From positions 1,612,001 through 1,676,000 of the forward strand of contig NZ_JAEPRJ010000001.1 in the NCBI RefSeq assembly GCF_016651435.1: DNA of 64,000 nt. Reading direction: 5' to 3'. Positions 39,706 to 42,751 of this stretch are shown here, in pieces. Positions within the stretch are counted from its first letter, which is position 1. Each line of letters starts with the position of its first letter. The notes below the pieces were generated by a model, which made no database searches, was not told the DNA's origin, and saw only the letters and a list, made by a program, of their open reading frames with translations. Origin of the DNA: Catonella massiliensis (GTDB lineage: Bacteria; Bacillota; Clostridia; Lachnospirales; Lachnospiraceae). Made by a program: the position numbers and the translations under genes.

Positions 39706-39740
39706 AGCTGCCATATCGTCATCAGTATGGTGGCTTTTTT
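39706..39740 (+). terminator. Terminator of rpsT
   Basis: Stem AGCTGCCATA (39706-39715) with TATGGTGGCT (39726-39735), 10 pairs including two G-T, then TTTTTC. Confidence 0.88.
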
Positions 39741-39750
39741 CTTTTAAATA

Positions 39751-39780
39751 TTGACTTTGCACCTTTGTATGTAATATTCT
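39751..39780 (+). promoter_or_regulatory. Possible promoter of the kinase-fold/VWA/PurA-like cassette
   Basis: TTGACT (39751-39756), an 18-bp spacer and TATTCT (39775-39780), directly after the rpsT terminator and 35 bases before the first cassette gene. Confidence 0.5.
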
Positions 39781-39815: not shown

Positions 39816-40682
39816 ATGATAAGACTAAAATGCAGTTCCTGCGGTGGAGAGCTTGAACTGAAAGGCTCGGGGATGTTTGAATGTCCTTATTGCGGTTCAA
39901 AATCATTTATGTCCGATGCTGATTTTAGAGGCAACGAAGAATTTAGAAAGAAGCTTCTCGAGTACTTAAAGGCAGAGGCTTGTAACAAAGATTTTGACTA
40001 TGCCGGCGATTCCTTATGGAAACAAACCAGTGAAGACTCTTTTGTTATGGCAAACGACAAAGAGCTTACCATACAGTATATGTTTAAGTACGATTATGAC
40101 TCCTGTCTTTGCTACCTTTCAAAAGAAAATGTGGTATATGTTTTAGATAATGTGCGTGAGAAAGAAAGATTTTTATTTGGAGTCAATTCTCTTGTGTTTC
40201 CGGAGGCAGACAGCAAGCTGCACCGCTGCTTTCCGCAGTTAAAGATGGAAATCTCCCTTAAAGACGGCAGGGAGGCTTTGATATTCCTAAGACGTCCTAA
40301 CTTCTTCCCTGTCGAGTATTTTGCACCGTTTGAATCAAAGCATTTGGCTTGGGTAATATCCAGAATGGAGAATATCTGCTGTGAGCTAGAGTATTCCGGT
40401 ATTGAATACGGCTGCATAGTTCAGAGTGCAGTCTGGATTAATCCCATCACTCATGAAGGGGCGCTGTTTGGCGATTGGAGAAAGGTTAGACCGATTGATG
40501 GTAATAAAGACCTTGTAGATGTCAGAAAGACGGCTATAAAAATAGTTAAAAATTCGAGAGAACCTATCGAGTTATATAAGTTCCTTAATTCTAAGCCAGA
40601 AAAAGATGCTTATGCTGATTTTAAGGCTTGGGATGATGTTATAGAAAAAGGCTTTGGCGGCCATAAATTCATAAAAATGTAA
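39816..40682 (+). CDS. Zinc-ribbon protein with degenerate protein-kinase-like fold
   Basis: A 288-residue protein of unassigned function. A CxxC-CxxC zinc ribbon occupies residues 6-26 (C6, C9, C23, C26). From about residue 95 the rest resembles a kinase-like family that I recall from other bacteria next to VWA proteins: an N-lobe-like segment, FLRRPNFFPVEYFA (about 157-170), HLAWVISRMENICCELEYSGIEYGC, then VWINPITHEGALFGDW (206-221) where kinases have the catalytic loop and DFG, and the ending KAWDDVIEKGFGGHKFIKM. The HRD-type Asp is absent and DFG reads GDW, so it is probably a pseudokinase. It is the first gene of a three-gene cassette, 15 bases before the VWA gene, with a GGAGAAAG ribosome site. 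The kinase-fold call is by recall and needs structure prediction. Confidence 0.6.
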   Translation: MIRLKCSSCGGELELKGSGMFECPYCGSKSFMSDADFRGNEEFRKKLLEYLKAEACNKDFDYAGDSLWKQTSEDSFVMANDKELTIQYMFKYDYDSCLCYLSKENVVYVLDNVREKERFLFGVNSLVFPEADSKLHRCFPQLKMEISLKDGREALIFLRRPNFFPVEYFAPFESKHLAWVISRMENICCELEYSGIEYGCIVQSAVWINPITHEGALFGDWRKVRPIDGNKDLVDVRKTAIKIVKNSREPIELYKFLNSKPEKDAYADFKAWDDVIEKGFGGHKFIKM

Positions 40683-40697
40683 AGGAGAAGTCACTAT

Positions 40698-41576
40698 ATG
40701 GGATATGGAAGTTATTCAGCTTCAGATTGGAGCAGATTAAAATCAAGCAGAAATCTTTCAGATACACAAAGCGTAAATGAAATATTTCAAAGGAGAGCCT
40801 GCAATCCTAAGTTCGATCCAAAGTTTATAGGAACCAGGGAGTGTTTTGATTCTGAGGACCATCCAAATACTACTCCTATTGTTGTAGGTCTTGATGTTAC
40901 CGCCTCTATGGGCTATCTTGCCGTTGAGGTCGCAACAAAGGCACTTAATCAGCTCATCATGAAGCTATACTCTACTGCTGCTGTTGAGGATCCTGCACTT
41001 ATGTGCGCTGCGTATGGTGATTTCGGTGATTTTTCACCTCTTCAGGTAACTCAGTTTGAATCAGATATAAGAATAGCTGAACAGCTGCTAGAGCTTTATT
41101 TTGAGAATCACGGATGTGGCGAGGTTGTACCTACCTGTTTGTGGGAATTTTTGTCAAGACATACCAACATAGATGCTATCAATAAGAGATCAAAAAAAGG
41201 ATTTTTGTTTACTATAGGTGACAATGCAAATATCAGAAAAGATCAGATTGAAGAAACCATCAAAAGGGTAATAGGTGATGATGTTCCAGGGGCTACCCGT
41301 GAGAGTCTTTTGGAGGAAGTACAGAAGAAATTTCATGTTTTCCACATTATGATAGGCGGCGATGGAAATAAGGATATATTGATTGGTAAAAAGATGGTAA
41401 TCTCGGTAAATGAGATTGAAAATATACCTGAAATTATTATAAGTGCTATTCAGCTACAGCTAGGCAAGTCGTTAAAGGACGTACTGGCGCAGTGGGATCC
41501 TCTCAGTGTTCCTGTGATAAGTGCTGCAATCAAACAGTTGAGTATAGCTGACAGTGGGCAGTCGATTACCCTATGA
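40698..41576 (+). CDS. VWA-domain protein of the cassette
   Basis: A 292-residue protein without signal peptide or TM segment. After a 55-residue N-terminal part rich in Ser and Arg (YGSYSASDWSRLKSS) comes a von Willebrand A fold: the MIDAS motif DVTAS at 66-70 (DxSxS with Thr in the middle), conserved GDFGD (107-111), a Thr in VVPTCLWEF (about 146) and TIGDN (172-176) supplying the third metal ligand. It is predicted to be a cytoplasmic Mg-dependent protein-binding module. It is coupled to the downstream PurA-like gene by an ATGA overlap and preceded by AAAGGAG. Similar cytoplasmic VWA proteins operate in TerY or MoxR-type systems, but this one is not clearly either. Confidence 0.75.
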   Translation: MGYGSYSASDWSRLKSSRNLSDTQSVNEIFQRRACNPKFDPKFIGTRECFDSEDHPNTTPIVVGLDVTASMGYLAVEVATKALNQLIMKLYSTAAVEDPALMCAAYGDFGDFSPLQVTQFESDIRIAEQLLELYFENHGCGEVVPTCLWEFLSRHTNIDAINKRSKKGFLFTIGDNANIRKDQIEETIKRVIGDDVPGATRESLLEEVQKKFHVFHIMIGGDGNKDILIGKKMVISVNEIENIPEIIISAIQLQLGKSLKDVLAQWDPLSVPVISAAIKQLSIADSGQSITL

Positions 41577-42751
41577 GAACAATAGCTGTAGTAGGCAAGA
41601 ATTACGGTGATGAAGGCAAAGGGCTTGTCACAGCAAGCCTTTGTTCTTCGTTTAAAAATCCGTTAATTATAAAACATAACGGTGGTGCACAGGCAGGACA
41701 TACTGTAGAGGACGAGGGAAGAGGCACACGCTTTGTCCATCATCAGATAGGTGCTGGTGCTGAATACGGCGCTGATACCCTCTTTGCTGAGACTTATTAT
41801 CCTGATTTGTATCAGATAAGAAAGGAAATCGAGGAGTTCAAATCCATATTCAGCGTAGTTCCAAGGATTTATGCCGAAGAAGGTTGCTGTATAACGACAA
41901 TAGACGATATCCTTATAAATATGGCTATTGAAACTAAAAGGGGCAAGCACAGACATGGCAGCTGTGGTATGGGAATCAATGAATGCAGCGAGAGGATTAG
42001 AGCAGGATATAAGATAACTCTTAAGCAGATAGCAGATTCATCCTATGACGGGCTGCGCAATTTGCTTGTAAATATAAGAAAAGAATATACCCTAAAAAGA
42101 ATAAAAGAATTGAAAATATCCGAACAAAACCCATATTATTCTATGATTTTTGATGACAATATTGTGGATAACTTTGCTGTAGAAATAAAAGACAACAGTA
42201 GATTTATCGAGCTTGTCAGTGCGGATAGTACTTGGCTAAAGCGTTATGATGGATTGATATTCGAATCGGGACAGGGCTTGCTCCTAGATAAGGATTATAC
42301 TGCGAATGCACCCCATCTCACATCCTCTAAAACCGGCATTACCGAACCCCTTAGATTCTTAAATAAGAGAAGTCTTAGCTTACAGGAAGCAATATATGTT
42401 ACAAGAACCTATGTTACAAAACACGGTGCAGGACCGCTTCCATACGAAATTAATACAAGTGATTGGGCTGATTTGGAGATGGATATGACAAATCTTCCTA
42501 ATGAATGGCAGGGAGATATCAGGTATGCAAGTCATGGAAGCACTTATGACTTTCTTCTTCCTGTTACCAACGATATTAAAGATATAAACATCAAGCCTTC
42601 TCTAGCTATTACTCACTTGAATGAAACGAATGGGAAAATACTGTTTGAAAATGAGAGTCTTGACCTCAAGAACTTTAGGGAAATATATGGTGATAAGTTG
42701 CAAAATGTATATATATCCAGAAGTCGTAGCGGGATTGAAAAATATTTTTAA
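41573..42751 (+). CDS. Adenylosuccinate-synthetase-like enzyme with altered substrate loops
   Basis: A 392-residue member of the PurA superfamily. GTP and catalytic elements are kept: YGDEGKG (11-17, catalytic Asp13), NGGAQAGHT (36-44, catalytic His43), SGQGLLLDKDY with HLTSSKTG (about 235-260), and YVTKHGAGPLPYE. Differences from ordinary PurA are clear. The IMP-site TxRGIGPxY motif is replaced by RHGSCGMGINECSERIRAG (127-145). The aspartate loop TTGRPRR is replaced by NEWQGDIRYASHG. The length is about 35-40 residues short. A QG-x-x-R type loop recalls the phage PurZ branch (2-aminoadenine synthesis), but this is from memory. It probably ligates an amino acid to a nucleotide other than, or modified from, IMP. 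Translation is coupled to the VWA gene. Confidence 0.8.
   Translation: MRTIAVVGKNYGDEGKGLVTASLCSSFKNPLIIKHNGGAQAGHTVEDEGRGTRFVHHQIGAGAEYGADTLFAETYYPDLYQIRKEIEEFKSIFSVVPRIYAEEGCCITTIDDILINMAIETKRGKHRHGSCGMGINECSERIRAGYKITLKQIADSSYDGLRNLLVNIRKEYTLKRIKELKISEQNPYYSMIFDDNIVDNFAVEIKDNSRFIELVSADSTWLKRYDGLIFESGQGLLLDKDYTANAPHLTSSKTGITEPLRFLNKRSLSLQEAIYVTRTYVTKHGAGPLPYEINTSDWADLEMDMTNLPNEWQGDIRYASHGSTYDFLLPVTNDIKDINIKPSLAITHLNETNGKILFENESLDLKNFREIYGDKLQNVYISRSRSGIEKYF

Follow-up and report, generated by a model that had tools for sequence, protein, structure and literature searches.

What does a bacterial chromosome gain from a ligase that resembles adenylosuccinate synthetase (AdSS) and is tied to a VWA-like protein? 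This question is raised by three same-strand genes at positions 39816-42751 of a 64,000-nucleotide stretch of the Catonella massiliensis genome (contig NZ_JAEPRJ010000001.1, positions 1,612,001 to 1,676,000 of the forward strand; hereafter the window). The first gene (39816..40682, + strand) encodes ZK, a protein of 288 residues with a zinc ribbon and a degenerate kinase fold; the second (40698..41576, +) a VWA-like protein of 292 residues (phrog_2971, unknown function); and the third (41573..42751, +) PURA, an AdSS-fold ligase of 392 residues. A gap of 15 bases follows the first gene and an ATGA overlap joins the other two, which confirms the arrangement described in an original prediction made from the DNA letters alone. 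We tentatively favour the view that this is a phage-derived VWA-PURA cassette, in which PURA, with the VWA-like protein as its dedicated partner, would attach a hypoxanthine-type nucleotide to some amine that is not aspartate.

The VWA-PURA link is apparent in counts from phages. Among annotated phages, tblastn found a PURA homologue in 212 records and a VWA homologue in 206, and the two were matched in phages of Mycobacterium (189 PURA and 188 VWA records), Rhizobium (10 and 10) and Vibrio (6 and 6); outside these groups, a few PURA records hold an ordinary PurA and are bacterial sequence filed in error. In the Mycobacterium phage Gizmo, a ser/thr kinase gene comes first and is followed by VWA, a small gene and PURA. 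Within IMG/VR, where 345 stretches encode the VWA-like protein and 459 a PURA relative, the best 80 loci of each were analysed: PURA was present in the fetched stretch (within 10 kb) at 76 of the 80 VWA loci and VWA at 77 of the 80 PURA loci, the second scan partly repeating contigs of the first. The few misses are mostly located at contig ends: VWA lies within ~2 kb of one in L074, L109 and L110, PURA lies within 1 kb of one in L173 and L203, and L038, seemingly without PURA, belongs to a contig on which another stretch (L166) carries it. Merging the viral sets gave 120 distinct VWA sequences with a readable start and 119 distinct loci with both genes. The VWA and PURA trees also correspond closely (over 146 loci r is 0.77, with 0.07 as the permutation maximum; over the 119 viral loci r is 0.69), these 146-row trees excluding the bacterial loci L006, L012 and L031 and rows beyond the length limits, such as L071. 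VWA and PURA are a near-obligate pair and the core of the block. Co-occurrence beyond close relatives, which the original prediction had set as a test, is therefore observed in Mycobacterium, Rhizobium and Vibrio phages; of the three-gene cassette that it described, the conserved part is the VWA-PURA pair, many phages having another gene, or none found, in place of the kinase-like one.

On bacterial chromosomes, the loci were found by exact peptide patterns of one query and are thus close relatives (54-90% identity). PURA adjoined the VWA gene in 30/30 of them (two partial) and ZK did so in 29/30. In L006 the contig ends within PURA, and in L012, the locus without ZK, the contig starts just upstream. 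In one locus (L031:2702-4283) each of the three genes is missing parts and PURA is in two pieces; this is either a decayed cassette or a mis-assembly. Neighbour clustering, which overlooked ZK in L018 and PURA in L021 (both genes are present there), showed that any gene family beyond these recurs in at most three of the 30 bacterial loci. The flanks of the window are shared only with Catonella morbi among these loci and the chromosomal sites are variable; the cassette is a compact, self-contained unit. Its hosts are mostly Lachnospiraceae (Catonella, Oribacterium, Butyrivibrio, Pseudobutyrivibrio and others) and its spread is patchy: it was detected in 18/397 genomes of the family and 8/391 of the class, the window genome counted, and a phylum-level scan with a less sensitive profile yielded 1/299 genomes, the window genome alone. 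The VWA gene was not found in a genome of the same genus (G545), where an empty site cannot be claimed because the two flanking genes are on different contigs. Separately, the VWA gene is occasionally present in two copies, in tandem or apart (L028:2894-4759; genomes G537, G921 and G1005).

What kind of enzyme is PURA? It has the AdSS fold, and the PurA residues with established roles include His41, Lys16, Gln224, Arg131 and Arg143. We compared 102 family members with 13 ordinary PurA sequences (four truncated at the start) and five of PurZ type. The equivalents of Asp13, Lys16, His41 and Gln224 are each kept in 102/102 PURA members and that of Thr239 in 97/102; in the window, the G-D-E-G-K-G nucleotide loop with the catalytic Asp13 maps to 41606..41623 (+). 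This conservation is consistent with the earlier proposal that the nucleotide ligase homologue is active. Unlike PurA, however, PURA has its aspartate-binding loop replaced (D-M-T-N-x4-W-Q-G-D-I-R, residues 304-317, 42482..42523, +). In the sequence alignment, the equivalent of PurA Arg303 is found in 1/102 members and that of Arg305 in 0/102, the latter position being occupied by Leu, Ile, Phe, Met or Val. Thr301 is replaced by Gln and the ribose-contacting Val273 by His in 102/102 members each, Arg131 is present in 0/97 of the rows listed, and a GDP-binding Lys of PurA is His or Cys in 95/102, which lends no support to the GTP dependence assumed in the original prediction. Arg303 contacts free aspartate and the O2' of inosine monophosphate (IMP), according to one study (PMC8342488), and in the H. 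pylori AdSS residues 289-294 form the Asp-binding loop, with Lys322 and Asp324 among the GDP contacts (PMC11276676).

PURA is also distinct from the phage enzyme PurZ. Position 13 is Ser in 5/5 PurZ-type sequences (L128-L132: Ghobes, Bhz9, PMBT28, Keanu and OMalley, the last two assigned to this group by our own analysis); similarly, according to PMC12884076, which counts 481 phage PF00709 homologues, Asp13 is essential to PurA, whereas the 147 phage PurZ sequences studied there all have Ser in its place. In a 62-row tree, outgroup-rooted on PurA and with SH-aLRT supports, the PURA family forms one clade (99), apart from PurA (87) and from the PurZ-type sequences (98). As judged from sequence, PURA is therefore a third clade beside PurA and PurZ. 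Two simpler identities were rejected: PurZ is ruled out by Asp13 (102/102) and the separate clade, and the ordinary PurA of the genome by a separate full-length PurA elsewhere (G000:C1:1406755-1408011), which agrees with the view of the original prediction that no housekeeping role is apparent; the refuting case that it named, a third gene that is the only PurA of the genome, does not apply. In databases, the phrog_1211 name '2-aminooxy adenylosuccinate synthetase' is carried by Asp13-keeping members, for example in the RefSeq phage NC_021346.1; this name is probably a misannotation, since the PurZ hallmark is absent. In one viral PURA gene (L071:3403-5925), the active-site motif GGxQAGH-TV is interrupted by an intein-like stretch several hundred residues long.

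The partner protein shows an unusually fixed N-terminus. The start codon is followed by Gly in 119/120 distinct viral VWA sequences and in 29/29 bacterial loci with a readable start; in the first set examined, this was true of 112/112 readable loci (two more were cut), in which the codon was ATG in 108, TTG in 2 and GTG in 2. Position 6 is Trp, Phe or Tyr in 119/120 of the viral sequences, and the whole motif, M-G-x-[G/S/A]-x-[W/F/Y], maps to 40698..40715 (+) in the window. The exception to Met-Gly is L161, with its near-copy L162, which read MSSKGSW; among listed database homologues, 118/120 have the MG start and two begin otherwise. A Shine-Dalgarno-like word precedes the VWA start in 105/112 loci (vs 506/2240 control positions inside genes), and the distance from the start to the MIDAS (metal ion-dependent adhesion site) motif is mostly 60-71 residues. 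Because alternative start codons occur at the same place, this is probably the true VWA start and a free N-terminal Gly is expected, methionine aminopeptidase being known to remove Met before Gly. Such a fixed terminus is unusual and its conservation suggests that the terminus itself is used; a purely structural role for the Gly is possible. Further along the protein, the MIDAS-like motif D66-V-T68-A-S70-M71 (40893..40910, +) and the T-I-G-D loop (T172-D175, 41211..41222, +) are both strongly conserved in the 146-row alignment: D66 and S70 in 144/146 rows and T68 in 143/146 (two rows are gapped at each position and one has Ser at 68), G174 and D175 in 146/146. When compared by hhalign with one VWA domain of the same genome, the protein aligned over only 15 residues around the MIDAS, with probability 9, vs 0.1-0.3 for three control families.

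Where did the cassette come from? Bacterial PURA proteins form one clade (SH-aLRT 99) inside the viral ones, with the contig L052 as sister (100); in this 62-row tree, the rows called bacterial comprise the window and 12 proteins from databases, of unchecked host. In the 146-row analysis, 27 loci from named genomes likewise group as one clade, with support 95 for PURA and 98 for VWA. The kinase-like gene of L052 is of the zinc-ribbon form, as in bacteria, and its surroundings have a few PHROG matches, mostly of unknown function. Because the bacterial PURA nest within viral ones, the bacterial cassettes are apparently phage-derived. Neither this viral origin nor the loss of the aspartate loop nor the fixed Met-Gly terminus had been noticed in the original prediction.

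The third member is the most variable. In the window, the ZK zinc ribbon is formed by Cys 6, 9, 23 and 26 (39831..39893, +), Cys6 being taken from the window sequence and the others from the homologue alignment, in which Cys 9, 23 and 26 are present in 48, 49 and 49 of 49 bacterial-labelled rows. Zinc-ribbon families match many of 80 aligned ZK/JK homologues (A2L_zn_ribbon 31 of them, best 9.5e-06). A kinase fold is predicted for residues ~72-288 (40029..40679, +), as supported by an AlphaFold2 model, structure alignment and hhalign; matches in a viral structure library were to general kinases and some polyproteins. The window ZK has Cys at the HRD Asp position and Asp at the DFG position, in agreement with the degenerate kinase-like domain that had been proposed. 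The HRD Asp is found in 22/49 bacterial and 5/31 viral rows, and the DFG Asp position holds Asp in 49/49 bacterial rows and Gly in 29/31 viral ones.

ZK had no tblastn match in named phages, and its phage homologue was found through neighbourhoods and profiles. This protein, JK (J-domain/kinase-like), is homologous to the kinase-like region of ZK (hhalign probability 100, E 4e-43). DnaJ (PF00226, E <= 0.1) matches 27/80 aligned ZK/JK proteins (best 3.2e-08) and, in single tests, 10/10 phage proteins, of which one passes the Pfam cut-off, and HPD or HTD occurs within the first 90 residues in 28/31 viral JK proteins. The Gizmo kinase matches Pkinase (8.6e-09) and, below cut-off, DnaJ. At the 120 distinct viral VWA loci, JK was present in 39, a Met-rich protein in 50, neither in 31 and both in none, each gene being counted anywhere in the fetched stretch, which was sometimes cut. 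The Met-rich family, with a GVVWD-like motif, replaces the kinase-like gene (for example L065:9151-9807 and L034:5237-5950) and showed no Pfam or PHROG match when two members were scanned in each.

A few features surround the genes themselves. A terminator-like hairpin (39706..39735, +; 11 pairs and a T tail in the scan, a consensus match only) follows the upstream rpsT and separates the cassette from this neighbour. A weak promoter-like site precedes the cassette (39751..39780, +; 9/12 consensus matches); the region holds 16 such sites vs 10.3 expected in shuffles, so the site is no evidence of function. In viral loci, NMNAT-Nudix-, NAMPT- and Thg1-like clusters are each found within 9 kb of VWA in six or seven of 84 loci (for example L117:16966-18129, L061:12349-13165 and L039:5607-6485) and possibly hint at a link with NAD or RNA repair.

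How might these parts work together? Since the PurA catalytic core is kept, we infer an activation driven by nucleoside triphosphate (NTP): at the expense of NTP, PURA would phosphorylate a hypoxanthine-type nucleotide on its 6-oxygen, following the Asp13 chemistry of PurA and not the guanine chemistry of PurZ. Since the aspartate loop is missing, the amine attached next would be one other than free aspartate, so that the product is either a modified adenine nucleotide or a partner protein carrying the nucleotide. The near-obligate pairing in turn suggests that the VWA-like protein participates in the reaction or is the carrier of its product; it would supply, hold or receive what PURA makes, with the free N-terminal Gly at its working end. 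The kinase-fold protein would be an adaptor, recruiting a client via the zinc ribbon in bacteria and Hsp70 via the J-domain in phages. In Lachnospiraceae the cassette would be retained for an accessory role, with competition between phages or stress as plausible settings.

Several points weigh against this scheme. The register of the aspartate loop is sequence-based, and a shift of one residue would move R317 (kept in 101/102 members) to the place of Arg305. PurZ likewise lacks Arg303, yet it uses aspartate, and PURA may have an altered nucleotide substrate with aspartate still used. For the adaptor, the DFG Asp in all 49 bacterial rows, joined by the HRD Asp in 22 of them, means that some bacterial ZK homologues may be active kinases, and the 31/120 viral loci with neither JK nor the Met-rich protein (some on cut contigs) mean that a third gene may not be needed everywhere. 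The VWA assignment has no significant match behind it: PDB profile searches were empty or insignificant and NCBIfam gave nothing significant, with sub-threshold matches only. Finally, the viral status of the contigs, L052 included, is that assigned by IMG/VR, and in the L052 stretch no hallmark structural gene was seen among the five open reading frames scanned.

A bolder version of the scheme, which we consider a long shot, is that the amine of the VWA N-terminal Gly, a protein amine, takes the place of aspartate and is linked by PURA to position 6 of a purine nucleotide. Three observations would then share one explanation: the lost aspartate loop, the near-obligate pairing and the fixed start codon plus Gly. 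If true, a peptide linked to adenine through N6 would represent a new class of protein modification, and the kinase-fold adaptor would deliver the charged protein to its target.

Other functions can be weighed against the non-aspartate ligase proposed here. The cassette could act in anti-phage or inter-phage conflict, the ligase product stalling a competitor while the kinase-fold and VWA-like proteins serve as sensor and switch; the patchy distribution, the variable chromosomal sites and the carriage by many phages all fit, but PADLOC models returned 0 families for each of ZK, the VWA-like protein and PURA and no toxic effector was recognised, so that we regard this as unlikely. A known defence system was rejected on the same absence of any PADLOC match, which also leaves the stress or defence role raised as a possibility by the original prediction without support. 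Less probable again is that PURA is an auxiliary PurA for phage purine salvage, boosting AMP and dATP, with its neighbours incidental: the AdSS fold and catalytic residues are retained and some phage neighbourhoods hold NAD or nucleotide salvage genes (NAMPT and the NMNAT-Nudix protein), whereas the aspartate-loop arginines are lost, the VWA link is near-obligate and the host already has a PurA. A PurZ-like pathway supplying the precursor of a modified purine for phage DNA is improbable, for although the genes sit in phages, the PHROG name points that way, L155 lies beside Sak4-like and DnaB-like genes and one neighbour cluster includes a DNA ligase, Asp13 and the separate clade set PURA apart from PurZ, no DatZ, MazZ or polymerase appears in the eight neighbour clusters annotated by a representative (most clusters being unannotated), and a bacterial chromosome would gain little from it.

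How does the cassette compare with described systems? PURA differs from PurA in the replaced aspartate loop, the change of the ribose-contact Val to His, the replaced GDP-contact Lys and its separate clade. It differs from PurZ and PurZ0 (phiVC8, S-2L, Ghobes) at Asp13, where the five PurZ-type sequences have Ser13 together with an R305/R306 pair. Its partner is a VWA-like gene, whereas PurZ is accompanied by mazZ, datZ or dpoZ. MoxR-vWA chaperone pairs, described in jumbo phages (PMC7824862), are also phage-borne VWA systems with a chaperone-like flavour; unlike them, the cassette has a ligase as partner and no MoxR ATPase among the annotated neighbour clusters. Its bacterial form recalls a further arrangement, in which a VWA-like protein adjoins a zinc-ribbon kinase-fold protein. 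This is the TerY-P triad of the Ter stress systems, composed of a VWA protein, a PP2C phosphatase and a zinc-ribbon kinase; unlike that triad, the cassette has no phosphatase partner (no fourth family recurs in more than three of the 30 bacterial loci) and has an AdSS-type ligase instead.

PHROG 1211, 2971 and 3043 are the named families of the parts, and the ligase is called 'PurA-like' in mycobacteriophages. Our literature search, outside which most subscription papers fell, returned no paper describing the VWA-PURA pair or the triad. Two papers list such genes without linking them: an adenylosuccinate synthase and a VWA protein, separately, in a Vi01-like phage (PMC10892097), and a ser/thr kinase and a PurA-like gene among those conserved in all C1 mycobacteriophages (PMC9476963). 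The enzyme is clearly an AdSS relative; as a system, no described counterpart was found.

Altogether, the VWA-PURA pair occurs widely in phages and has been retained on Lachnospiraceae chromosomes, among hosts that include gut and oral bacteria, under a database enzyme name that probably follows PurZ wrongly. Recognising the pair would correct the annotation of ~190 mycobacteriophage records, and of others too, and its study could bring to light a new metabolite derived from purine, or a new protein modification, that is used in phage infection.

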